NCBI GenBank assembly: GCA_009782015.1
Contig: WQUP01000133.1
Span: 1-11,912 of the forward strand
Reading direction: 5' to 3'
Origin: Endomicrobiia bacterium
GTDB taxonomy: Bacteria; Elusimicrobiota; Endomicrobiia; Endomicrobiales; Endomicrobiaceae
DNA: 11,912 bases
Positions 100 to 11,912 of this stretch are shown here, piece by piece. Under the pieces are notes generated by a model. That model worked only from the letters and a program-made list of their open reading frames with translations, was not told where the DNA came from and searched no databases. The first letter of the stretch is position 1, and every line of letters starts with the position of its first letter. The position numbers were made by a program, and so were the translations under genes.

Positions 100-141
100 T
101 GACACGCAGTGTCACCCTGAAAGGACAAAGTCCTTGAAGGG
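100..141. repeat. Two adjacent triloop hairpins, one nested
   Basis: The hairpin tgacac-gca-gtgtca occupies 100-114. It is followed at once by an outer stem ccct (115-118)/aggg (138-141), which encloses the inner hairpin aaggac-aaa-gtcctt (121-135). Both inner loops are three bases closed by AC/GT. No coding sequence with a plausible ribosome-binding site covers this stretch. It looks like REP/palindromic-unit DNA; the family is not identified. Confidence 0.65.
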
Positions 142-153
142 TCTAGACCTCTA

Positions 154-206
154 GATCCTTCGTTGAGGACGAAGTCCTCGCCTCAGGATGACACCTTTGG
201 TGTCAT
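154..206. repeat. Nested REP-like palindrome plus hairpin
   Basis: Outer arms atcct (155-159) and aggat (185-189) enclose an inner hairpin gaggac-gaa-gtcctc (165-179). The outer right arm runs into atgacacc-ttt-ggtgtcat (188-206), an 8-bp perfect stem. The outer frame gatcc...aggatgaca resembles the REP-like sequence near 10277-10303 (gatccc...gggatgaca), with another hairpin in place of the usual loop. Confidence 0.65.
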
Positions 207-291
207 TTTGCTCAAACAACCGGATTTGAATAATCCGCAAAAATCCTACGCTCATAAGCCGCGCAAAATGCGGCAACAACGAAAAGATAAA

Positions 292-419
292 AACGGCAAA
301 GCCGTTAATTCCCCTTTTGTAAAAGAGCCTGCCCTGAGCGAAGGGACATCGTCCCGAAGTCGAATGGGGGTGGCAGGAGACAAGGTCTCGGCAGGAGACA
401 AGGTCTCCTGACGGGGTAT
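292..419. repeat. Dispersed palindromic repeat, copy A
   Basis: It begins with the hairpin aacggc-aaa-gccgtt (292-306) and the motif gccgttaattcccctttt. It contains a gccctgagcgaa...gtcgaatggg REP-like piece interrupted by gggac-atc-gtccc (343-355). It ends with ggggtggcag, an arm/loop/arm, and ctgacggggtat. The terminal hairpin is caggagac-aag-gtctcctg (392-410). The 18-base unit ggcaggagacaaggtctc is exactly duplicated in tandem (372-389 and 390-407). Copies B (4841-5008) and C (6466-6534) share the frame but have different arms. Confidence 0.75.
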
Positions 420-557
420 CGCCGTTGCAGCAGTGTTGTTCCTTAAAGACTTTAAAGTCCTTAAGGACCTTAATGTCCTTAAAGTCGTAAGAAGTAGCCT
501 CAAATGAAGAAAATCATAGCAATCAACTGCAGTCATCGTGAGGGGAATTAACGGCTT
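299..557. repeat. 17-bp perfect inverted repeat bounding a 259-bp block
   Basis: aagccgttaattcccct at 299-315 is the exact reverse complement of aggggaattaacggctt at 541-557. The block between holds the rest of copy A and a 9-bp tandem array, with no credible gene. It could be a MITE-like unit or simply two repeat copies in opposite orientation. No target-site duplication was recognised. The rightmost arm ends only 20 bases beyond the stop codon of the minus-strand autotransporter gene. Confidence 0.6.
442..486. repeat. Five degenerate 9-bp tandem units
   Basis: Successive units are cttaaagac, tttaaagtc, cttaaggac, cttaatgtc and cttaaagtc, each 9 bases. The second half of unit 1 with unit 2 forms the 12-base palindrome gactttaaagtc (448-459). 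A nine-base period keeps frame, so false open reading frames cross it on both strands. No sign of expression is visible. The rest of the spacer up to 577 shows no further structure beyond the inverted-repeat arm. Confidence 0.65.
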
Positions 558-577
558 ATCTAAATGAAGCCATGTTT

Positions 578-3500
578 TTACTGTCCGAGAATCTTTTTTG
601 CGGTTGTCGTGGCCCAGTCAACCGTCTTTTTGTAGAACGAAAGAGGTATGCCGTTTGGCGCGGCTATGTAAATGCTGTTTTGCACAACGGCTTTAGGTTT
701 GAGTTCGTCAAGGCCGGAAAGTTTATATTTATAGTTGTTCAAAAGCGTGTTATCCATAATGCCGGATTTCTTTGCCGAAGTTTGTTTTGATGCGGACGCT
801 CCTTCAGTCTGGCTGTCTGGCTCTTCGCTGCCGCTGATTTCATCTTCCGGCTCTATTGTTGAGATAGCCACAGCTTCCGTCGGTTCCTGCCTGTCTTGCG
901 CTTGCCGGGCTTCTTCCAAAAGTCTTGCTTGTTCCTGTTCGGCCGCCAGCTTTTCGGCTGTAAGCTTTTCAGCCGCAAGTTTTTCAGCTGCAAGCTTTTC
1001 GGCTGCAAGCCTGGAGGCTGCAAGCCGATCGGCTGCAAGCCTATCGGCTTCTTCTTGAGCTTTCTTTTTTGAGGCAGCTTCTGCCTTGGCAGCTTCGGCA
1101 ACTTTTGCCGCGGCCGCTGCTTTTGCTTTTTCTTCGGCTTGCGCTTTTTGCTGCGCAAGTTTAGCTTGCTGCGTTTCAAGTTTTGCCTGCTCGCCGGCTT
1201 TAGCTTTTGCCGCTTTAGCCTCAAGCTTTGCTTGTCTGTTTTCCGCGGTTATCCTTGCCTGCTCGTCAGCTTTTGCCTGTTTTGCGGCGGCCGCCTGCGC
1301 CGCTGCTTCGGCTTTCTGTCTTGCCTTTTCTTGCGCTATAATTGCCTGCGCTTGACGCTCCTGCTCGGCTTGTTGAGCTTCGGCTTGTTGAGCGGCATTC
1401 TCTTTAGCCTGCTGTTCTTCCAAAGCTTTTTGCTGCGCTTTTTGTTGCGCTGCTGCCTGGCGTTGTGCTGCCTGCTGTTGCGCTGCCTGAAGTTCAGCTT
1501 CTTTTTGGGCAGTTTCTGCCCTGGCAACTTCGGCAACTTTTGCCGCTTCTGCCGCCGCTGCAGCTTGTTGCTGTTTCAGCGATTCTTTTTCCGCGGAATT
1601 GTTTGAAGAGCAGAAAGTATATCTCAAGCCGAGATTGCCGTATATGTTTTGAAATTTGTCCGCCGCGTAGTAACTTGCGTTTGCAAAAACTTTAAGCCTT
1701 TCCCAAACTCTTACCGCTGCGCCGATGCCTGCTCCGAATATTACCTGGGATTCTTCGTATCCGCGGCTGTAGAAGCTTTCGGAAGTTCCGTCAAAAACGG
1801 ATTTTACTTCCGGCGCGGTACCGCTAAAAAGATATTTTGCTTCCGTATTTACGTAAGCGCTCCATTTTTTGTCGTCATACGCAGCTCCGGCTCCGAGCCG
1901 GCCGGCTGATCTGAAATAGTTTCCGCCGTCAACTTTTAAATCAAAAGCGCCTGCTCCGCTTTCCGTAAATCCGCCGTAATTTGAGTTTCTCGCTTCAAGC
2001 CCTGCATACGGCCTGAAATTTATATTTTGCGCCGCTTCAAATTTCAACGCGCCTTCAACATCGCCGCCGAAAGTCATGCCGCTGAAACTGCCTTTGGCAG
2101 TTCCGTTATTAAAAGGTATGTATCTTGTAGTATCATAGCTGTCGTAACTTCCCGCAACCAAAGCTTTCACTTCCCAAAAATTTTCGATATAGCCGCCGTA
2201 AACGCCAAGCCCGGTGTCTGAAATATCCGCGCTGTTTCCGGGAATCTGGCTTATGTCGTGCCCGTCGTACTTTCCGTATATGCCTAACATTATTTTGCTG
2301 TCAGCCAAAAATTTGTCGTAACCGCCCATCGCTCCGTAAGAAACGTCCTGATAATCGTTGATAGAGTTGTCATCCCCGCCGTATCTGGCGTATCCGCCGG
2401 TCGCCTGTAACCATACGCCGCTGCTTGTGTTTCCGTCGGGACAGTGGTTCTTTATTCTGTCGTAAATCTTATCGCTTTCCGAGTCAAGAGCCGCGCTCCT
2501 GATAACGTTTGCAAGAAAGTATCCCGAAATCTGCGAAAGAGCGGCTCTTTGTCCCTGCTCGTCCAATGCGGTAATGTCGTTTATAACTGTCATAAGCGCC
2601 GAGGGCGCTGCCGAGCCTGCGGAAATGGAGTCTAAGACTCCGGCGGTTTGCCGCTGGTTGTAAGAAATGCCGCTCAGCGCGGCAAAATTGGTGAGAAAAG
2701 CGCCGTTTATAATCAGCCTTACCAAATTGGGAATGCTGTAATCTATTGAGTATGCCAGCTCCGCGCTGTTTATCGAGCTTGACGCAAAAGTTCCGGAAAC
2801 TGTGGTATTTGTGCTTTCCACTATGTTAAACACGGAGTTGTTATACGTTCCGACGCCGGCTTGTATGGAAAGATTTCCGCCGACCTGCGCCGAGCCCGAG
2901 GTTACTTTGTCGTTTGTGCCGTCGTCAAATATGTCAACTTTCAAGTTAGAAAAGCTTTTAAAAGTTCCGGCTTCAACGGTTTCCGCCGTGCCGTTTTGCA
3001 TGTCAAGCGCGCTGCCCGAAGGAAGCGCAAGATTTGCGCATTTTAAAGAAGCGCCCGAAAGAAGGGCGATGTCGCCCGCCGATATATTAAAACTTCCCCA
3101 TATTTTGTTTATTCCGCCGAGGCGCAAAGTTTGCACCCCCGTTTTGTTTATAATTATTCCCGCTGAGAGCGGGTCAGTGACTATGCCGCCTTCCATAGTT
3201 ATGGGATTTGCTGCCGCGTTAAGATTCAGCGTTGAGTTGATATCCATATATATGTCGTTAGGCGTTCCGTTTGCGGTGTTTCCCGTAAAAGTAATTGCGC
3301 CTCTGTCGGCGTTAAGCGTTACATTGCTTGCGGAGATATACAACGCGCCGCCGTTTGCGCTTACCGTGTTGTTTTCAAAAAGGATTTCGCCGCCGAAAAC
3401 CGCGGCGGTATTGTTTGCAATCGCTATCGCGCCGCCGGAAGCGGCCGAATTGTTTTTAAAAGAGGCCTGCGTTGTCCACGCAAAATCAAGCGTTGAGCCG

Positions 3501-4114
3501 GACGAGTAAACCGCGCCGCCTTCCGCGCCCGCCGAGTTGCCCGAAAAAGATACGTTTCCGCTGAAACTTGCTATGCTTGGCGCGCCTGCCGCCGAAGAGT
3601 TTGCGGCATATATCGCTCCGCCGCTGCCTCCGGCAGAATTGCCGTTAAAAGAGTTTGTCTGTCCGAAAATGGATACGCCGCCGAGAAGATACATCGCTCC
3701 GCCGTCTGCGGACGCGGCATTGTTTGAAAAAACCGTTGCCGTAAAATTTCTGTAGTCGGCCGGAACGCCTGCGGAGTTATTTTCAAGATACATCGCTCCA
3801 CCGTTGCCCGCTCCGCCGTTTGTCACAAAAAGATTGGATATAGTCAAATTGAGAAGCGATGATGACGCGTCGTTGAGGAATCTGTTGCCTGCGAGATTGA
3901 CGGCGTAATTGTTGCCGTTGAATGTTTTGGAGTAAATAAAATCAGGGAGAGGGGCGGAAAGCGTTATTGAAGAGGTAAACGTTTCCAAAGAAGACAAAGG
4001 GTCGGCTATTTCCGAAGACAGCGACGCAAAATCAGAGACGTCTCCGGCGTATGCCGCCGCAGAAAAGTTCAGCATCGCTGCCGCTAACAACATGCATGAA
4101 AATTTTTTGATCAT
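578..4114 (-). CDS. Autotransporter with Pmp-like passenger and C-terminal coiled-coil tail
   Basis: Predicted surface protein of 1178 residues. The start at 4114 puts a signal peptide (about 1-23, ending AYA before GD) first; an in-frame ATG at 4213 would add 33 residues without a signal and is rejected. Residues 105-280 carry repeated GGA[IMV]Y and FxxN motifs, as in chlamydial polymorphic membrane proteins, indicating a beta-helix passenger. Residues 493-557 are a helical linker (QRAALSQISG, then DKIYDRI). The barrel spans about 565-834 (SGVWLQATGGYAR to GLRYTF, ending in F834). Unusually, the protein continues: 838-1077 is Ala/Gln/Lys/Glu-rich, TolA-like helix including seven LAAEK-type pentads (1026-1060), then an acidic linker and a roughly 60-residue tail. 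Known barrels place residues after the last strand in the periplasm, so the tail is inferred to be periplasmic. The RBS is weak (AAGG, about 9 bases upstream). Function of the passenger is unknown. Confidence 0.9.
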   Translation of the reverse strand: MIKKFSCMLLAAAMLNFSAAAYAGDVSDFASLSSEIADPLSSLETFTSSITLSAPLPDFIYSKTFNGNNYAVNLAGNRFLNDASSSLLNLTISNLFVTNGGAGNGGAMYLENNSAGVPADYRNFTATVFSNNAASADGGAMYLLGGVSIFGQTNSFNGNSAGGSGGAIYAANSSAAGAPSIASFSGNVSFSGNSAGAEGGAVYSSGSTLDFAWTTQASFKNNSAASGGAIAIANNTAAVFGGEILFENNTVSANGGALYISASNVTLNADRGAITFTGNTANGTPNDIYMDINSTLNLNAAANPITMEGGIVTDPLSAGIIINKTGVQTLRLGGINKIWGSFNISAGDIALLSGASLKCANLALPSGSALDMQNGTAETVEAGTFKSFSNLKVDIFDDGTNDKVTSGSAQVGGNLSIQAGVGTYNNSVFNIVESTNTTVSGTFASSSINSAELAYSIDYSIPNLVRLIINGAFLTNFAALSGISYNQRQTAGVLDSISAGSAAPSALMTVINDITALDEQGQRAALSQISGYFLANVIRSAALDSESDKIYDRIKNHCPDGNTSSGVWLQATGGYARYGGDDNSINDYQDVSYGAMGGYDKFLADSKIMLGIYGKYDGHDISQIPGNSADISDTGLGVYGGYIENFWEVKALVAGSYDSYDTTRYIPFNNGTAKGSFSGMTFGGDVEGALKFEAAQNINFRPYAGLEARNSNYGGFTESGAGAFDLKVDGGNYFRSAGRLGAGAAYDDKKWSAYVNTEAKYLFSGTAPEVKSVFDGTSESFYSRGYEESQVIFGAGIGAAVRVWERLKVFANASYYAADKFQNIYGNLGLRYTFCSSNNSAEKESLKQQQAAAAAEAAKVAEVARAETAQKEAELQAAQQQAAQRQAAAQQKAQQKALEEQQAKENAAQQAEAQQAEQERQAQAIIAQEKARQKAEAAAQAAAAKQAKADEQARITAENRQAKLEAKAAKAKAGEQAKLETQQAKLAQQKAQAEEKAKAAAAAKVAEAAKAEAASKKKAQEEADRLAADRLAASRLAAEKLAAEKLAAEKLTAEKLAAEQEQARLLEEARQAQDRQEPTEAVAISTIEPEDEISGSEEPDSQTEGASASKQTSAKKSGIMDNTLLNNYKYKLSGLDELKPKAVVQNSIYIAAPNGIPLSFYKKTVDWATTTAKKILGQ
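935..1039 (-). repeat. Seven 15-bp in-frame tandem units in the autotransporter tail
   Basis: The plus strand shows units such as cggctgcaagctttt and cagctgcaagctttt repeated with few changes. They encode seven pentapeptides of type L-A/T-A-x-K/R (residues 1026-1060 of the autotransporter). Because each unit is a multiple of three, gain or loss of units would change tail length without a frameshift. Confidence 0.8.
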
Positions 4115-4231
4115 GCCGCAAAACCTTTTTGGCGTAGTCGGACTTCGGGAGATACTGCGAACACGAAAATGGTATAAAAAAATAAGACCATTTACAAATA
4201 AAAACCGCCGCAAAATGCAAAAAAATTGTGA

Positions 4232-4237
4232 ATTATA
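4232..4237 (-). promoter_or_regulatory. Possible -10 element for the autotransporter gene
   Basis: The minus strand reads TATAAT at 4237-4232, a perfect sigma-70 -10 hexamer, about 118 bases upstream of the start codon at 4114. No good -35 hexamer lies 16-18 bases further upstream. The position inside an AT-rich patch makes chance occurrence plausible. It implies a leader of about 110 bases. Confidence 0.3.
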
Positions 4238-4241
4238 ACGG

Positions 4242-4316
4242 CGGAAGTTCAGCGGCTCGGAAGTTCAGCAGCTCAGCAACTGCAACGACGAAGCCTTTGC
4301 CTTTGCCGAACTTCCG
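4242..4316. repeat. GAAGTT-type dispersed repeat, copy 1
   Basis: Two 16-base units, cggaagttcagcggct (4242-4257) and cggaagttcagcagct (4258-4273), differ at one base. The segment 4259-4315 runs ggaagtt...aagcctttgcctttgcc...cttcc and is similar to 6568-6617. Arms cggaagttc (4258-4266) and gaacttccg (4308-4316) are perfect inverted repeats. It occupies the divergent spacer between the autotransporter and the receiver gene. Confidence 0.65.
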
Positions 4317-4339
4317 GGCTTCTGAGCTCTCCTAGCTTC

Positions 4340-4369
4340 GGCGCGCGATGCGCTTGCGCATTGCGCGCC
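4340..4369. promoter_or_regulatory. Strong GC-rich hairpin in divergent promoter region
   Basis: Bases 4340-4352 pair with 4357-4369 around a 4-base loop (cttg): a 13-bp stem with one G-T wobble (4347/4362). No T tract follows directly on either strand, so an intrinsic terminator is unlikely. Its right arm overlaps the best -35 candidate for the receiver gene. It could be an operator, a repeat unit or a transcription-blocking cruciform; the sequence does not distinguish these. Confidence 0.6.
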
Positions 4370-4389
4370 TCACCGTATTTTGATAAAAT
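4361..4389 (+). promoter_or_regulatory. Candidate sigma-70 promoter for the receiver gene
   Basis: An extended -10, TG-A-TAAAAT (4381-4389), lies 27 bases upstream of the ATG at 4417. A weak -35 (ttgcgc, 4361-4366) sits at 17-base spacing. The -35 falls inside the right arm of the 4340-4369 hairpin, so folding or protein binding there would affect it. Confidence 0.4.
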
Positions 4390-4416
4390 CTCAGCCGCAG
4401 CCAACGGGGTAATATT

Positions 4417-4788
4417 ATGATAAAAATACTGCTTGTTGATGACGAAGTTTACGCAAGAGACAATATGGCAAGGCTGATACAGCGCAAAGGCTTTGCGGTA
4501 TGCGTCGCAGGCAATGCCGACGAATGTCTCAAAGTTTGCAAAGAAGAAAAGCCCGACGCGGTTTTTTTAGACATTATGCTTCCCGACAACGACGGCGACC
4601 ACCTTTTTCCTTACATAAAAGAAATAAATCCCGACATCGCAATTTACTTTATCACCGGCTCCGGCACCATTTTTACCGAAGAGCACGCCAAAGAACTCGG
4701 CGCCGCCGGTTACATGCAAAAGCCGGTTTACATGGAAAACCTGTTCGCGCTGCTTGAAGAGATAAAGAAGAAAGCGGAGAGCAAATAA
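4417..4788 (+). CDS. Stand-alone response-regulator receiver protein
   Basis: CheY-like receiver of 123 residues with no output domain. The acidic pair D8/D9 (VDDE), phosphoacceptor D52 (VFLDIMLP), T80 (FITGSG) and K102-P103 (MQKPV) are all in canonical places, so it should be phosphorylatable by a sensor kinase. The ATG is preceded by ggggtaat about 7 bases upstream. With only a receiver it must act through protein contacts (like CheY or Spo0F) or as a phosphate sink. No kinase gene is in the window. It is transcribed away from the autotransporter gene, with a 302-base spacer, and is followed by repeat DNA rather than an operon partner. Receiver assignment is secure; the target pathway cannot be told. 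Confidence 0.93.
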   Translation: MIKILLVDDEVYARDNMARLIQRKGFAVCVAGNADECLKVCKEEKPDAVFLDIMLPDNDGDHLFPYIKEINPDIAIYFITGSGTIFTEEHAKELGAAGYMQKPVYMENLFALLEEIKKKAESK

Positions 4789-4792
4789 AGGC

Positions 4793-4824
4793 GATGCAGG
4801 GATGCGAAGATGCAGGGATGCAGA
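4793..4824. repeat. Four 8-bp tandem units after the receiver gene
   Basis: Units gatgcagg, gatgcgaa, gatgcagg and gatgcaga lie head to tail starting 4 bases after the receiver stop codon. They are part of the repeat DNA filling 4789-5081. The 8-base period does not preserve frame, so a coding role is unlikely. Confidence 0.7.
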
Positions 4825-4840
4825 GAAACAGCTTTATCAG

Positions 4841-5008
4841 CGGCAAAGCAATAAATTCCCCTTTACTTAAAGGGGTGAGTGTGCGACGAATAAGAGCCTG
4901 TCCCGAAAGGTAGCAGTTCGGGAAGCACGAGACGCGAACGGGCGCGATGGCACAATGTGCCTGTGAGCGCCCCGGATGGCAAAAAACGAAGTTTTCTGAC
5001 GGGGCATG
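4841..5008. repeat. Dispersed palindromic repeat, copy B
   Basis: It has the same frame as copies A and C: cggcaaagc, ttcccc, a ccccttt/aaagggg stem (4858-4875), then ggatggca and ctgacggggcatgg at the right end. The terminal hairpin is aaaac-gaa-gtttt (4983-4995). Between them are tcccgaa/ttcggga (4901-4923) and a nested pair: outer gggcgc (4940-4945)/gcgccc (4967-4972) around ggcac-aat-gtgcc (4949-4961). An open frame from an ATG at 4947 crosses this repeat into the next gene, but it is repeat-derived. The remainder to 5081 holds an imperfect ggggac/gctccc hairpin and the RBS of the next gene. Confidence 0.75.
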
Positions 5009-5081
5009 GCTTTTATTAGCAGAATCGGGGTGCGGGGACAAAGCTCCCGACGCAGTATTTGCCGGCAATGAGGAAATAAAA

Positions 5082-6437
5082 ATGTCATTTACAGAAAACA
5101 ACAGAATTGAATATAAAGAGAAGCTTACCGACAACTTGGAGAAATATGTTGTCGGCTTTGTTAATTCTAAGGGCGGAGAAATTTATATCGGAATAAGAGA
5201 CGACGGGAGTGTTGCCGGCGTTCATAATCCCGATGAAATTCAACTAAAAATCAAAGACAAACTTATCAACAACATACGTCCGAGCATTCTGGGGCTTTTT
5301 GATATTGTTGCGGAAAAAAGAGACGGTAAAACTATAATAAAAATTTCTCTTTCCGGCGGAATGGAAATGCCTTATTATATCAAGCAAAAAGGCCGTTCGG
5401 AATCCGGCTGTTTTATGCGCATAGGAAGTTCTACCCAGCCGTTAACCGAACAAATGATAACGGACTTGATGTCAAAGCGGCATCCCATATCTCTTGCGAG
5501 AATGCCTTCTTTGCATCAAGACCTTACGTTTAAACAGCTTAGAATGTATTATGCCGAAAATAACAAACCCTTAAACGAAAACCTCGCGCAAACTCTGGAC
5601 TTCTATACTCCGGAAAAGAAATACAATCATGTCGCATATCTGTTTGCCGACAATAATAATGTTTCGATTCGTCTCGGAAAATATGCGGGAAAAGATAAGC
5701 TTGATTTGATAGGAACGGAAGAATACGGCAACTGTTGTTTTGTCAAGGCAATGCAGAAAATTATAGACCGGTTTGAGATAGAAAATATCACGCAATCCCA
5801 AAAACGCGGATTGAAAACCCGGCTGGACAAAAAATTAGTCGATAAAGACGTTTTGCACGAGGTAATAATAAATGCTTTTGCGCACAACGATTATTCCCGC
5901 GGCGACACCCCTATTTTTGAAATATTTTCAGACCATTTTACGATTACTTCTTTCGGCGGATTAGTTGAAGGCTTATCTTTAGAGAAATTCTTTAACGGCA
6001 TCTCTATGCCGAGAAACCGCGAAATAGTAAGAATCTTCAAAGACCTTGAATATATGGAGCAGATAGGCTCCGGCATCCCTAAGATTATTTCCAAATACGG
6101 CAAAGATTCCGTCTCAATAGACGGCGCGGTTATGCAAATATTATTGCCTTTTGACTTTTTAGGAAATGAAGATGCGGCATATAGCGCAGCCGGTCAAAAA
6201 ACTAGCCTAAAAACTAGCCTAAAAACTGACCTAAAAACTGACCTAAAAATACTTAATGCCATAAGAAGAAATCCGGCTGTTTCTACCATTGAATTGTCTG
6301 AAATTTTAAACTTAAGCATATCCGGAATAAAATGGAACTTAAACAAGCTGAAAAAAGACGGACTTATCAGACGCGCCGGAGCGAAGAAGGGCGGGTATTG
6401 GGAAATGATTAACGGAAGAGTGAAGAGCGGAGAGTGA
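5082..6437 (+). CDS. AlbA_2 / HATPase_c_4 / winged-helix regulator (COG2865-type)
   Basis: Predicted transcriptional regulator or ATP-binding protein, 451 residues. Residues 5-120 match the Schlafen AlbA_2 domain (IEYKE, then FVNSKGGEIYIGI). Residues about 250-345 resemble the divergent GHKL ATPase HATPase_c_4: E260-x3-N264-A-x2-H268-N-D270-Y271, PRNREI (310-315) and GSGI (329-332). A linker with four KT[SD]L tetrapeptides (373-388) leads to a winged helix (about 389-445: STIELSEILNLSISGI, then GLIRR). Such proteins are often mislabelled RecG-like helicases; no helicase motif is present. I chose ATG 5082 because aggaaataaa lies just upstream and the AlbA_2 domain begins at once; an upstream ATG (4947) adds 45 residues translated from repeat DNA. 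The last residues (RVKSGE) and stop come from a 7-bp tandem repeat, so the original C terminus may have been altered. Confidence 0.88.
   Translation: MSFTENNRIEYKEKLTDNLEKYVVGFVNSKGGEIYIGIRDDGSVAGVHNPDEIQLKIKDKLINNIRPSILGLFDIVAEKRDGKTIIKISLSGGMEMPYYIKQKGRSESGCFMRIGSSTQPLTEQMITDLMSKRHPISLARMPSLHQDLTFKQLRMYYAENNKPLNENLAQTLDFYTPEKKYNHVAYLFADNNNVSIRLGKYAGKDKLDLIGTEEYGNCCFVKAMQKIIDRFEIENITQSQKRGLKTRLDKKLVDKDVLHEVIINAFAHNDYSRGDTPIFEIFSDHFTITSFGGLVEGLSLEKFFNGISMPRNREIVRIFKDLEYMEQIGSGIPKIISKYGKDSVSIDGAVMQILLPFDFLGNEDAAYSAAGQKTSLKTSLKTDLKTDLKILNAIRRNPAVSTIELSEILNLSISGIKWNLNKLKKDGLIRRAGAKKGGYWEMINGRVKSGE
6197..6244 (+). repeat. Four 12-bp in-frame units in the regulator linker
   Basis: Two units of aaaaactagcct are followed by two of aaaaactgacct. 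They encode K-T-S-L twice and K-T-D-L twice (residues 373-388), between the ATPase-like domain and the winged helix. Similar short tetrapeptide runs before the HTH are, to my knowledge, a common feature of COG2865 proteins. Units are exact within each pair, indicating recent slippage or duplication. Confidence 0.85.
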
Positions 6438-6452
6438 CGAGTAACGAGTGAA
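6418..6452. repeat. Five 7-bp tandem units spanning a stop codon
   Basis: Units gagtgaa, gagcgga, gagtgac, gagtaac and gagtgaa lie head to tail. The third contains the tga stop (6435-6437) of the AlbA_2 gene, so the array supplies the end of that protein and continues into the spacer. A seven-base period shifts frame, so array length sets where translation ends. Confidence 0.75.
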
Positions 6453-6465
6453 GATACGGCGATAG

Positions 6466-6534
6466 CGGCAGAGCCGTTAAATTCCCCTTTAGCATAAAGG
6501 GGTGGCAGAAACGGAGTTTCTGACGGGGTATGGT
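6466..6534. repeat. Dispersed palindromic repeat, copy C (most compact)
   Basis: Order: cggc-aga-gccg (6466-6476), ttaaatt, the hairpin ccccttta-gca-taaagggg (6484-6502), tgg, the hairpin cagaaac-gga-gtttctg (6506-6522), and acggggtatggt. This is the cleanest version of the frame shared with copies A and B. Both main stems have 3-base loops. It lies between the regulator and the 272-residue membrane protein. Confidence 0.8.
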
Positions 6535-6567
6535 CTTGCGGTAACTAAAATAGAAGCTGAGATGGCT

Positions 6568-6617
6568 GGGAAGTTGAGCAGCAACGATAACAAAGCCTTT
6601 GTTTTTGCCAAGCTTCC
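6568..6617. repeat. GAAGTT-type dispersed repeat, copy 2
   Basis: The segment starts gggaagttgagcagcaacga, continues with aaagcctttgtttttgcc and ends agcttcc. It aligns with 4259-4315 with small gaps (shared ggaagtt, agcagc, aacga, aagcctttg, tttgcc, cttcc). It lies directly upstream of the next gene, so it may carry promoter or leader sequence. Confidence 0.55.
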
Positions 6618-6664
6618 AAACATCCTAACTTCTAAACTTCTGTCTTTTAACAAAAGAGGGGCAA

Positions 6665-7483
6665 ATGAAAAAATTTTTGATAGTTCTTCTTTGCTGCTGT
6701 TTTACGTTGTCCGTTTTTAAAGTTCCGGTTTATTCTTACGGAAGCCAAAATTACGAAGATTTCAGCGAAGAAAAATCAAAGTACAGAATTCTAATAGGCA
6801 TCATTCTCGTAGTCGGCGGCGGCTTCCTGGCCTACGACGGCTTCAGATCAGTCAAAGTGGATATATCAAAGCCTTCATACAGCATATTAAATCTTCAAAG
6901 CAGGTGGAATGTTCGATCAGATGGCTTTTCACTTTGGATAAAATCAAGAGGCGATATTGTCAATACCGGCAATGTAACGCTTCATGTAACCAATATGGAG
7001 GTAAGATATCAAACCAACAGTCCGAATTACTACTACCCTGATCAAGGAGCACTGGGAAATATTTCGGGCGATAGCGTAAACATAGGGGCAGGACTTACGC
7101 TCAATGTCAATGATCAAGTATATTGGTCTGTGGCTAAACCACATACGAGAGATATAATGCATCCAAATGATCCAAAGGGGGATCAAGGACAAAAAGGAGA
7201 CGATGATGGAAACGATAACTGGTTTCCCGACAATATAGATTCTAATACCTATGCCGAAGTCGTAAACCTGAAATACACATGGGACAAAAAATATAAAACA
7301 CAGATGAACAGTCCGTACGAAGGCATAGCCGGAGTTGTTCTTTTGGGAGCCGGCGCATATCTGCTTATAGACTACATAGTCAGTCTCAATAAATTTGAAT
7401 ACTACATGAAAAAACACAGCATGGACGTGTATGTCCAAAACTCGTCCGACGAATTCCGTCTGATGTTTTCTAAGAGAATGTGA
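6665..7483 (+). CDS. Uncharacterised envelope protein with two hydrophobic segments
   Basis: No family recognised. The product has 272 residues. The start is supported by agagggg a few bases upstream of ATG 6665. Residues 1-24 look like a signal peptide (MKKFLIVLL, three adjacent cysteines, ending VYS); the cysteine context does not fit a lipobox. Two glycine-rich hydrophobic segments follow at about 41-58 (ILVVGGGFLAYDGF) and 220-240 (GVVLLGAGAYLLIDYI). They flank a polar, Asn/Tyr/Asp-rich central part with many alternating hydrophobic residues (TLHVTNMEVRYQT) that suggests beta structure. Residues about 170-180 hold a short D/G-rich stretch (KGDQGQKGDDDG). The polar middle is probably extracytoplasmic and membrane-anchored at both ends. 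Repeats separate it from both neighbours, so an operon is not evident. Confidence 0.75.
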   Translation: MKKFLIVLLCCCFTLSVFKVPVYSYGSQNYEDFSEEKSKYRILIGIILVVGGGFLAYDGFRSVKVDISKPSYSILNLQSRWNVRSDGFSLWIKSRGDIVNTGNVTLHVTNMEVRYQTNSPNYYYPDQGALGNISGDSVNIGAGLTLNVNDQVYWSVAKPHTRDIMHPNDPKGDQGQKGDDDGNDNWFPDNIDSNTYAEVVNLKYTWDKKYKTQMNSPYEGIAGVVLLGAGAYLLIDYIVSLNKFEYYMKKHSMDVYVQNSSDEFRLMFSKRM

Positions 7484-7528: not shown

Positions 7529-7631
7529 GTGTCATTCCCGTGAAAACGGGAATCCACATGTGTCGTTAAAGGAATAAGGTAAAAAGCAAACGATGAGCAA
7601 AAATGGATACCCGCTTTCACGGGTATGACAC
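7529..7631. repeat. Pair of inverted dRS3-like palindromes
   Basis: The left copy contains attcccgtgaaaacgggaat (7534-7553), the ATTCCC-N8-GGGAAT form of the neisserial dRS3 repeat. The right copy (7607-7626) is in opposite orientation, with atacccg...cgggtat. Over 28 bases the outer arms (gtgtcat...tcca and tgga...atgacac) match with three differences. Each copy can fold alone, and the two can pair with each other around a 46-50-base loop. The right copy ends 27 bases upstream of the ATG at 7658. Confidence 0.8.
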
Positions 7632-10236: not shown

Positions 10237-10303
10237 CGACGAGATGCTGAAACAAGTTACGGAAGTAAACTTCCGAGATCCCTAAACAAGTTCGGGATGA
10301 CAC
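10237..10303. repeat. REP-like palindrome with half copy and inserted hairpin
   Basis: The half unit gatgctgaaacaagtt (10243-10258) lacks its right arm. It is followed by cggaag-taaa-cttccg (10260-10275) and then a full unit: gatccctaaacaagtt with atccc (10278-10282) pairing to gggat (10294-10298), ending gatgacac. The two units match at 13 of 16 positions. This is the main content of the 343-base spacer 10178-10520, which otherwise shows no credible gene. Confidence 0.65.
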
Positions 10304-10337
10304 TTACTGGGAAGTGTAGGTTTTAGGTTTTTTTTGG
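10300..10337 (+). terminator. Weak terminator-like hairpin with T tract
   Basis: Stem acactt (10300-10305)/aagtgt (10312-10317) with a six-base loop, then T4 and, ten bases past the stem, T8 (10328-10335). It lies about 120 bases after the stop of the secreted-protein gene. The stem is short and the T tract is displaced, so efficiency is doubtful; it also overlaps the end of the REP-like unit. Confidence 0.3.
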
Positions 10338-10520: not shown

Positions 10521-11912
10521 ATGAAAAAATTACCAATAAGCATCCAGTCATTTGAAATTTTAAGACGAAACGGTTGTGTGTATGTTGACAAGACAAAGTA
10601 TGTTTTTGACTTGATAAACAACGGAAGAGTTTTTTTTCTTTCCCGGCCGCGCAGGTTTGGGAAATCTTTGCTGATAAGCACTTTTGAGGAATTGTTCAAG
10701 GGCAGCAAGAGTCTTTTTGAAGGGCTGTATATTTACGACAAATGGAATTGGGCTGAAAAATATCCCGTGATTCATTTGGATTTTGCGGAAATAAATTATG
10801 AAACTAACCTGAAACTTGAAACGGACTTGCTTAATTTTATATCCGAAACGGCAAAACAATATGGTATTGAATTGACAGCCGACAATCTTGTAAGCAGATT
10901 TTCGCAGCTGATAAAGCAATTGCACGGCATAACCGGAAAAGGCGTTGTAATCTTGGTTGACGAATACGATAAGCCCATAACAGACAGCCTGTCAAACAAA
11001 GAAGTTTTAGCGTCAAACAAAAGAACGCTCCATGATTTTTATCAGGTAATAAAAGCAACCGACGAGCATTTAAAGTTTGTTTTTCTGACGGGCGTATCAA
11101 AATTTTCCGGACTTTCCGTATTTTCGGCGTTAAACAGCATTAACGATATAACGGTTGATGAAAGATATTCCGCCATTTGCGGCTACACGCAAGAAGAGTT
11201 GGAAGAAAATTTCAGAGATTATATAACGGAACTTTCAAAAAAATTAAACTTAACACACGAAGAAGTCGCCGCCTCCGTTAAAGATTGGTATAACGGCTAT
11301 TCTTGGGACGGAAAAATATCGGTTTACAACCCGTTTTCAACTCTTATGCTTTTTGACAAAAAAGAATTTAAAAATTATTGGTTTCGCACCGGTACGCCTA
11401 CTTTTCTTATGGAATTAATCCTCAAGCGCAACAGGCCGCAGGCGTTTCTTGAAGCAATAGAATTGCCGGACAGCTCTTTTGAAAGTTATAATCCGGATAA
11501 TTTAAGCGAGATTCCGTTATTGTTTCAAACGGGATATTTGACGGTAAAAGACAAAAAATCAAGTCAAAAAGGCGTTCAATACACCCTTGATTTTCCAAAC
11601 GCCGAAGTGAAGGAGTCTTTTTTTCAGTATTTGTTAAGCGCCTACACCGCAAATACGCCGGACATCATCCCTGAAATGTTTAACAGAATATCGCGGCAGC
11701 TGGAAAATTTAGATTCCGCCGGACTGCAAGACAGCATAACCGCTTTGTTTGCCAATATTCCGTATCAAATAAAAACCGACAGCGAAGCGTATTATCATTC
11801 TATATTTTTAATATGGCTTAAAACATTGGGCTTTGACATACAAGGGGAGATAAGCACAAACAGAGGCAGAATAGACGCGGTTTTAAAGCAAAATAATTAT
11901 ACGGTTATAACC
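10521..11912 (+). CDS. AAA-ATPase-like / PD-(D/E)XK nuclease-like protein (3' end cut by window)
   Basis: Partial: 464 codons stay open to the last base. The ATG at 10521 follows agaggg. The N-terminal AAA-ATPase_like domain (PF09820 family) has FLSRPRRFGKSL, with the Walker A-type G47-K48-S49, and Walker B VVILVDEYDKP with D147-E148. Conserved GVSKFSGLSVFSALN, then the family signatures GYTQEELEENF and DWYNGYSW, follow. The C terminus enters the PDDEXK_9-like nuclease module: YYHSIFLIWLKTLGFDIQGE, then STNRGRIDAVL with D452. The window stops just before the expected E-x-K catalytic strand, so catalytic completeness cannot be judged. These genes are often multicopy in gut and host-associated bacteria; their biological role is unsettled (mobile-element or defence-like roles have been proposed). 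No frameshift is seen. Repeats just upstream suggest an independent transcription unit. Confidence 0.93.
   Translation, partial: MKKLPISIQSFEILRRNGCVYVDKTKYVFDLINNGRVFFLSRPRRFGKSLLISTFEELFKGSKSLFEGLYIYDKWNWAEKYPVIHLDFAEINYETNLKLETDLLNFISETAKQYGIELTADNLVSRFSQLIKQLHGITGKGVVILVDEYDKPITDSLSNKEVLASNKRTLHDFYQVIKATDEHLKFVFLTGVSKFSGLSVFSALNSINDITVDERYSAICGYTQEELEENFRDYITELSKKLNLTHEEVAASVKDWYNGYSWDGKISVYNPFSTLMLFDKKEFKNYWFRTGTPTFLMELILKRNRPQAFLEAIELPDSSFESYNPDNLSEIPLLFQTGYLTVKDKKSSQKGVQYTLDFPNAEVKESFFQYLLSAYTANTPDIIPEMFNRISRQLENLDSAGLQDSITALFANIPYQIKTDSEAYYHSIFLIWLKTLGFDIQGEISTNRGRIDAVLKQNNYTVIT

Follow-up and report, generated by a model that had tools for sequence, protein, structure and literature searches.

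The window analysed in this study, a stretch of 11,912 nucleotides (nt) from an Endomicrobiia bacterium (contig WQUP01000133.1 of assembly GCA_009782015.1), contains small hairpins with three-base loops that are almost certainly the loops and linkers of structured repeats. Two kinds of repeat in the window, here named F1 and F2, carry such hairpins, and a further kind, F5, is found in the same genome. In F2, the bases of a purine arm covary with those of a third, purine-rich stretch lying beyond a hairpin linker, and this third strand is very likely a real structural partner of the stem. As a whole, the reading favoured here with good confidence is that the hairpins are joints of small interspersed DNA elements, of which F2 and F5 would fold as intrastrand triplexes. 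The source genome comprises 1.58 Mb in 290 contigs and is 71% complete; stretches of it are 70-71% identical to Endomicrobium/Endomicrobia metagenome-assembled genome loci (L149, L179, L125) and 75% identical to L212.

Covariation between stem and third strand in F2

F2 follows the frame CCCC-arm-loop-arm-GGGG-TGGC-[hairpin]-GAC-GGGGT-xx, in which the hairpin joins a Watson-Crick stem to the third purine-rich stretch through a linker of mostly 12-27 nt. Sixteen copies were identified by a relaxed pattern in 140 contigs of the source genome. Across 84,980 species genomes, a scan with stem and tail left free and CAG/CTG fixed at the linker ends yielded at least 116 stretches, and the 80 labelled loci span more than twelve phylum-level names; within the bacterium's own phylum, the full pattern was found in 9 of 198 genomes (30 elements). 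A Watson-Crick stem consisting of CCCC and at least two further upstream pairs was present in 115/138 genomic copies and in 9/13 copies from the source genome.

In 118 distinct F2 elements from the species-genome scan, the bases that follow GGGGT can be predicted, in mirror order, from the purine-arm bases outside GGGG. At position 2, A is accompanied by A in 19/21 cases and G by G in 95/96, while at position 3, G is accompanied by G in 83/86 and A by T in 21/24; mutual information peaks on the mirror diagonal (0.61 and 0.53). When the purine arm and the third stretch were scored in mirror register by the triplex code (G:G and A:A/T), 259/266 positions fitted in the species-genome set, whereas 2000 shuffles of the tails averaged 185 and never exceeded 205. 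The corresponding values were 24/25 for the source genome (shuffle mean 13.5, maximum 22) and 85/154 for the IMG/VR set, which consists mostly of chance matches (shuffle mean 64, maximum 80). Stem-bearing F2 fitted at 17/17 positions in the source genome, 222/226 in the species genomes and 34/35 in IMG/VR, and stem-less matches at 7/8, 37/40 and 51/119, respectively; because stem-less genomic copies also fit the code, the contrast between the two groups rests on the IMG/VR set. In the 30 elements of the phylum set, 29 fitted at position 2 and all 30 at position 3.

Among the 80 labelled loci, the stem-tail pairs AGG-GG, AAG-AG and AGA-GT recur across several phylum-level names, and AAA-AT appears once, its other occurrences being in the source genome and the phylum set. 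Within the source genome, AAA is paired with AT in 8/8 copies, AAG with AG in 2/3 and AGG with GG in 3/3. A de novo scan for any 7-nt purine arm with a partner counted 15 mirror versus 2 parallel third strands in the bacterium's own DNA and 157 versus 49 in other genomes, the loci of the latter having been chosen for F2. Taken together, the comparisons across bacteria point to a natural importance of the third strand.

The order of parts in F2 and its triplet code are those of a class II purine-motif intrastrand triplex, a fold predicted here from sequence. The same order, running from pyrimidine arm through loop, purine arm and loop 2 to third strand, has been described for PIT, BoxC and TMECO elements (Holder et al. 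2015, PMC4666352, in the part of that text available to us, as for all statements from it below). F2 shares with these elements the arm order, the triplet code and the many interspersed copies, but differs in having a CCCC/GGGG core with 2-4 variable triplets and a hairpin as loop 2, which is 22 nt long in the window's intact copy. It does not match the TMECO sequence type (CCCTCNCCC N3-6 GGGNGAGGG N3 GGGNGAGGG), and its linker is longer than the loop 2 of 1-6 nt searched by Holder et al. or of 0-10 nt searched by Hoyne et al., as cited by Holder (PMC4666352). F2 is a new family and a variant of the intrastrand-triplex (PIT/BoxC) element; it is called a variant instead of a plain member because its loop 2 exceeds the published length, which is itself a search setting and not a property of the fold. 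Since its linker is a longer hairpin, this class would escape searches limited to short second loops. No report of third-strand covariation in such elements was found among the matches listed in the literature searched, which included combined covariation and triplex terms, and searches with element sequence strings listed no report on such repeats; the available part of Holder et al. (PMC4666352) contains no mention of covariation that we could find.

Triloop hairpins and the repeats that carry them

The first-pass annotation of the window had described nine triloops closed by AC/GT with otherwise unrelated arms, and all nine were located (Table 1), including one placed at position 395 whose true span is 392-410 with an arm of 8 base pairs (bp). 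Counted as perfect triloops with arms of at least 5 bp, hairpins of the form AC-NNN-GT number 9 in the window (mean 0.35 and maximum 2 in 60 dinucleotide shuffles), and triloops of any neck number 41 (mean 15.75, maximum 26). The expected genome-wide excess was also borne out in the noncoding part of 80 contigs (479,843 bases, including the window's contig, with coding DNA masked by open reading frame (ORF) length alone): among hairpins with arms of at least 6 bp and a 3-base loop, 40 had a GC neck, 29 an AC neck and 18 a CC neck, compared to 0.3, 0.7 and 0.7 in shuffles. A family defined by the AC/GT neck is ruled out by these figures, as GC and CC necks are equally overrepresented. Because the excess extends to several necks, the rule is a C-G pair closing three bases. 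The elements whose loops they form are of at least two kinds, F1 and F2, each with a conserved outer frame. The observation that geometry is kept while arms are unrelated was upheld: 23 distinct arms occur among the 34 inner hairpins of F1 described below, they do not collapse into one or two sequence families, and ordinary copying of arms cannot account for such diversity at constant geometry. Within the window, the hairpins at 121 and 165 lie in F1 and those at 377, 392, 4983 and 6506 in F2; the hairpin at 343 lies in an F1-like frame interrupting an F2 copy, that at 4949 in the long insert of another F2 copy, and that at 100 merely borders an F1 copy. Double-hairpin elements of fungal mitochondrial DNA also keep their shape while their arms change, in a different host and with a different layout from F1 and F2.

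F5 is the BoxC/PIT/TMECO type in the source genome, and its copies fit the TMECO 9-mer pattern except in loop 2. BoxC-like elements were examined in IMG/VR by a four-way scan in which the stem base and the third-strand base were fixed for each pattern. Concordant elements comprised at least 120 stretches for A/A and at least 120 for G/G, compared to 8 with stem A and third-strand G and 22 with stem G and third-strand A; 5 of the 7 distinct A/G cases contain a concordant GGATGAG within the stretch counted as linker. A first control of linker pairing, which allowed any loop length, gave no signal (36 versus 33.5). A strict test was then defined as a full hairpin with a 3-nt loop and compared with shuffled linkers. 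Such hairpins were present in 10/20 IMG/VR F2 linkers with the CCCC arm (0.14 in shuffled linkers) and 2/84 without it (0.73), and in 14/124 BoxC-like linkers of 9-30 nt with the arm (0.24) and 1/24 without (0.05). In genomic F2 they were found in 84/110 linkers with the arm (1.6) and 13/17 without (0.2), both figures being helped by the fixed CAG/CTG. Among A/A BoxC-like linkers of at least 9 nt, 58/155 were hairpins (8.3 in shuffled linkers) with 14 kinds of arm, all 58 closed by C-G and 55 with a GNA loop; among G/G linkers, in a set enriched for long linkers, 12/88 were hairpins (0.34). Outside the source genome, loops are closed by C-G and are most often GNA (74/104), while in the source genome AAN loops are as common as GNA. 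GNA loops closed by a C-G pair form extraordinarily stable DNA mini-hairpins, according to the available parts of PMC4686876 and PMC6479982. The linkers of F2 and BoxC-like elements resemble these d(GCGAAGC)-type structures in the dominance of C-GNA-G triloops outside the source genome; however, the mini-hairpins are described there as in vitro structures and aptamer parts, whereas the hairpins seen here are a recurrent natural linker.

The second frame, F1, reads GTCA-XXX-YGA-[hairpin]-GAA-xxx-TC. A scan of 140 contigs of the source genome gave 68 matches, in 63 of which the outer triplets XXX and xxx are complementary (seven kinds); a stricter pattern gave 38/39. Thirty-four of the 63 copies have an inner arm of at least 4 bp, compared to 2.4 expected from shuffled inner parts, and 25 of these 34 inner hairpins have a 3-nt loop, closed by C-G in 23. 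Matches to a YY/RR pattern number 75 in the whole source genome and 3, 1, 0 and 0 in four genomes of the same genus. The unpaired CGTC/TGTC end is present (of 63 copies, 27 have C and 35 have T ahead of GTC), the stem starts with AT in 58/63, and the tail is CCAG in 30/63 and CTAG in 30/63. Fifteen pairs of copies have their GTC ends outward, three have them facing and three lie on the same strand. The CGTC-tagged REP repeats have an unpaired CGTC/TGTC end, a stem of 8-9 bp that starts with AT, a loop of 4-5 nt, a short tail that is mostly CCA, and dimers that are mostly head-to-head (Di Nocera et al. 2013, PMC3733652, as far as available). F1 resembles them in its unpaired (C/T)GTC end, AT stem start, CCA/CTA tail, dimers and lack of an associated transposase, and differs in that a variable inner hairpin between GA..GA junctions replaces the plain loop of 4-5 nt on a stem of 8-9 bp. 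F1 works like a CGTC-tagged REP but falls outside the group by the plain loop of 4-5 nt. By eye, plain CGTC-REP-like sequences without an inner hairpin are also present in the window at 7531-7555 and 7604-7628 (GTCATTCCCG..CGGGAATCC and an inverted partner) and at 10270-10305 (GATCCC..GGGATGAC).

Hairpin turnover and alternative explanations

A mechanism that writes hairpins, proposed in the first-pass annotation, was examined by scanning the DNA of the source genome for GGGACNNNGTCCC units and hairpin-free sister sites, with shuffled right flanks as the control for duplications. The unit GGGACNNNGTCCC occurs in 40 copies (0.24 expected), of which 17 have a direct duplication of at least 2 nt at their ends (7.8 with right flanks shuffled) and 20 have none. 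The proposal appears right in part, in that hairpins seem to be written as units in the source genome: single hairpins of 13-15 nt lie inside loops whose exact hairpin-free copies are found elsewhere, with 2-3 nt duplicated. At L288 8546, compared with the window and L266, there are 0 mismatches in 28 nt and AA is duplicated, in agreement with the alignment; GAA is duplicated at L272 944, AA at L074 3703 (a site outside a loop), and GAA, or 5 nt by another reading, at L283 2876. L285 15258 concerns a different hairpin within the linker of a triplex-type element, again with GAA duplicated, and L047 2926 shows no duplication. Insertion is argued from these single cases because the bulk count is just above its shifted controls: an empty site was found for 27/677 hairpins, compared to 14, 12, 23, 18 and 22 in the controls, and tandem repeats account for some of the 27. 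Repeated junctions (GA..GA) around inner hairpins number 29/88 in the source genome (13.3 expected), an excess without counterpart in the other two sets (1/38 versus 2.1; 11/167 versus 9.2). For some hairpins no donor was found in the source genome's DNA, as with ACAACAAGGTTGT, whose sequence is present there once only. Hairpins may be copied into loops occasionally, probably by template switching with loop bases as microhomology; such writing by copying is proposed tentatively and is rather doubtful. Two further observations concern loop contents in the source genome. The module ACCCGATTWAGACAYTCGAGTGTAAACTCC, some 30 nt long, occupies hairpin loops in differing frames (F1 kinds, F2 and plain CGTC-like; Table 1), and the frame GTATCAT-[hairpin]-GTATCATTTCC is found with single or tandem GGGGACNNNGTCCCC hairpins at L083 3843 and 4050, L047 1771 and L258 3525.

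Under the favoured reading, the hairpins would be interchangeable structural joints or tips of interspersed elements, with no family of their own. The F2 and F5 strands would fold in the order of pyrimidine arm, loop, purine arm, hairpin linker and third purine-rich strand, giving a purine-motif triplex within one strand, with a mini-hairpin carrying a C-NNN-G triloop as its second loop; in F1, a similar hairpin would be the tip of a longer stem. Linker arms would be free to differ because pairing, loop size and junction alone are kept. The fold may form in single-stranded DNA, for example during replication, where stalling or template switching could spread copies and swap hairpins, and selection or master-copy expansion may maintain the concordant triplets.

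Several points weigh against this reading. Genomic F2 without a recognised stem obey the code as well, and the antiparallel fit of the third strand to the purine arm (G:G and A:A/T), although present in F2, is weak at position 4 (17/30 in the phylum set). The covariation counts are of sequences and not of independent events, such that a few old master copies could yield much of the signal, and AAA with AT is found mainly in Endomicrobia-type genomes. The scan pattern, by forcing CAG/CTG at the linker ends, favours pairing in the species-genome set; most G/G BoxC-like linkers are short and lack a hairpin, in a biased set; and the bulk test for empty sites barely exceeds its controls. A strand bias relative to genes that would prove a role at the DNA level is absent, as F2 in other genomes is co-directional with both neighbours in 24 cases and opposite in 16 (21 and 12 inside ORFs, defined by length). 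Intrastrand triplex formation in cells is itself debated, and TMECO showed no protection from dimethyl sulphate in vivo, leaving a stable triplex unsupported (Holder et al. 2015, PMC4666352).

There are several potential alternatives to the favoured reading. It is unlikely that the mirror agreement reflects descent, with a few old subfamilies of fixed stem and tail having spread and the third stretch having no structural role. Subfamilies are visible and the counts ignore relatedness, but all four combinations of the two stem positions are found with the matching tail, several of them within one genome; moreover, AGG, AAG and AGA each appear under several phylum-level names, and the BoxC-like elements, a second type, obey the same rule. 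RNA elements, either terminators or hairpins stabilising messenger RNA whose arms drift with compensation as is common among bacterial stem-loops, provide a quite improbable explanation. Intergenic sites are common, complementarity is kept and F2 leans towards co-directional placement; however, this lean is small, BoxC-like elements in IMG/VR are co-directional in 13 and opposite in 9 cases (33 and 45 inside ORFs), an Rfam search of the window with E up to 1 matched no family, and RNA reportedly does not form purine-motif triplexes (PMC4666352). The same covariation would also be expected if the pyrimidine arm paired with the tail in parallel, an arrangement inseparable from the triplex by sequence, but this needs T-T contacts. 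A G-quadruplex reading of F2, based on its three G runs, was considered and fails to predict the A/T agreement, and Watson-Crick pairing of the tail inside F2 was rejected, since arm and tail lack complementarity when aligned antiparallel.

Two further alternatives concern the hairpins and their agent. Quasi-palindrome correction or template switching might make perfect mini-hairpins in any loop, with the elements merely displaying the sites. This is a genuine possibility of less than even standing: the exact hairpin-free copies at L288 8546, L272 944, L283 2876 and L285 15258 speak for it, as do the excess of GGGACNNNGTCCC and of GA..GA junctions, but the bulk count lies close to its controls with many tandem repeats among its cases, half of the GGGACNNNGTCCC copies lack a duplication, and the junction excess is confined to the source genome. 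Transposition of the REP/RAYT type, in which a Y1 transposase recognises the folded element, is highly unlikely. The elements are REP-like and often form inverted pairs, most with GTC ends outward, but no Y1_Tnp was found in the source genome (71% complete) or in the same-genus genomes G002 and G003 (93% and 100% complete), both of which carry F2; G001 contains 2 and G004 contains 3, and 13/59 genomes of the family are positive. The RAYT transposase suggested in the first-pass annotation is therefore without support as the agent, the RAYT gene that characterises RAYT-REP/REPIN systems being missing from the incomplete source genome, and no transposase was tied to CGTC repeats in the available part of Di Nocera et al. 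(PMC3733652).

Natural third-strand covariation is a separate line of evidence for retention of the three-strand fold; it is readily testable on public genomes, and F2 yields simple oligonucleotides for testing. Conceivably, although this broader picture is more doubtful than probable, such elements are pan-bacterial single-strand DNA machines with co-evolving triplex strands and an exchangeable mini-hairpin joint, renewed by palindromes of 11-15 nt inserted in loops with duplication of loop bases. This broader picture, if true, would mean that living cells form intrastrand triplexes frequently enough for them to be maintained, and that inserted palindromes rank among the smallest units behaving like mobile DNA.

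Element copies and gene context in the window

Table 1. Repeat copies and associated features; positions refer to the window unless a locus is named.
Feature	Positions	Strand	Description
F1 copy (CGTC-REP-like)	111..143	+	GTCA-CCC-TGA-AAGGACaaaGTCCTT-GAA-GGG-TC; inner hairpin 121-135
F1 copy, inverted	154..192	-	read on -: GTCA-TCC-TGA-gGCGAGGACttcGTCCTC..-GAA-GGA-TC; inner hairpin 165-179; dimer with 111-143
Hairpin TGACACgcaGTGTCA	100..114	.	borders and overlaps GTCA end of F1 copy
F2 copy, disrupted	311..419	+	CCCC arm 311-314; purine arm separated from GGGG (366-370) by F1-like piece with hairpin 343-355; linker with hairpins 377-389 and 392-410 in tandem; GGGGTAT 413-419 as third stretch; partly from reading of the sequence
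F2 copy, long insert in linker	4858..5007	+	arms 4858-4864 and 4869-4875; hairpins 4949-4961 (inside insert) and 4983-4995; third stretch GGGGCAT 5001-5007; from reading of the sequence
F2 copy, intact	6484..6531	+	arm CCCCTTTA (6484-6491) and purine arm TAAAGGGG (6495-6502) around loop GCA; hairpin 6506-6522 within linker 6503-6524; GGGGTAT 6525-6531 as third stretch
Stretch missing in three same-genus genomes	4789..6664	.	holds Schlafen/AlbA-type gene (ORF 4947-6437) between two F2 copies
ACCCGATTWAGACAYTCGAGTGTAAACTCC module, 8 matches to 3' part	L018 6496, L045 4116, L079 772, L089 5788, L252 14399, L054 10200, L248 7033, L268 5647		

Folding of the intact F2 copy as single-stranded DNA, in a model without a triplex term, gave -12.1 kcal/mol compared to -3.7 for shuffled sequences (z -5.5). 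In the same model, the region 100-206 gave z -6.4 and the disrupted copy z -1.8 only.

The two F2 copies that flank the Schlafen/AlbA-type gene have the same orientation. In G001, G002 and G003, the gene directly after the response-regulator gene is related (about 40% identity) to the one at 6665-7483, with the intervening piece missing, and in G004 another gene follows the response-regulator gene; no orthologous F2 was found beside the response-regulator gene in these four genomes. Elsewhere, G001 contains a relative of the Schlafen-type gene with 55% identity. This arrangement fits the genome instability reported around TMECO (PMC4666352).

Other features of the window include an interspersed repeat of about 100 bp at 4240-4330 and 6555-6650 (..CAACGAC..AAAGCCTTTGC..TTTGCC..CTTCC), which has many relatives in the source genome. 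An autotransporter with Chlamydia-PMP-like repeats and a long tail rich in alanine, glutamine and lysine lies at 578-4213 on the minus strand, and an AAA-ATPase_like / PDDEXK_9 gene on the plus strand (10521-11912) is ended by the contig edge.

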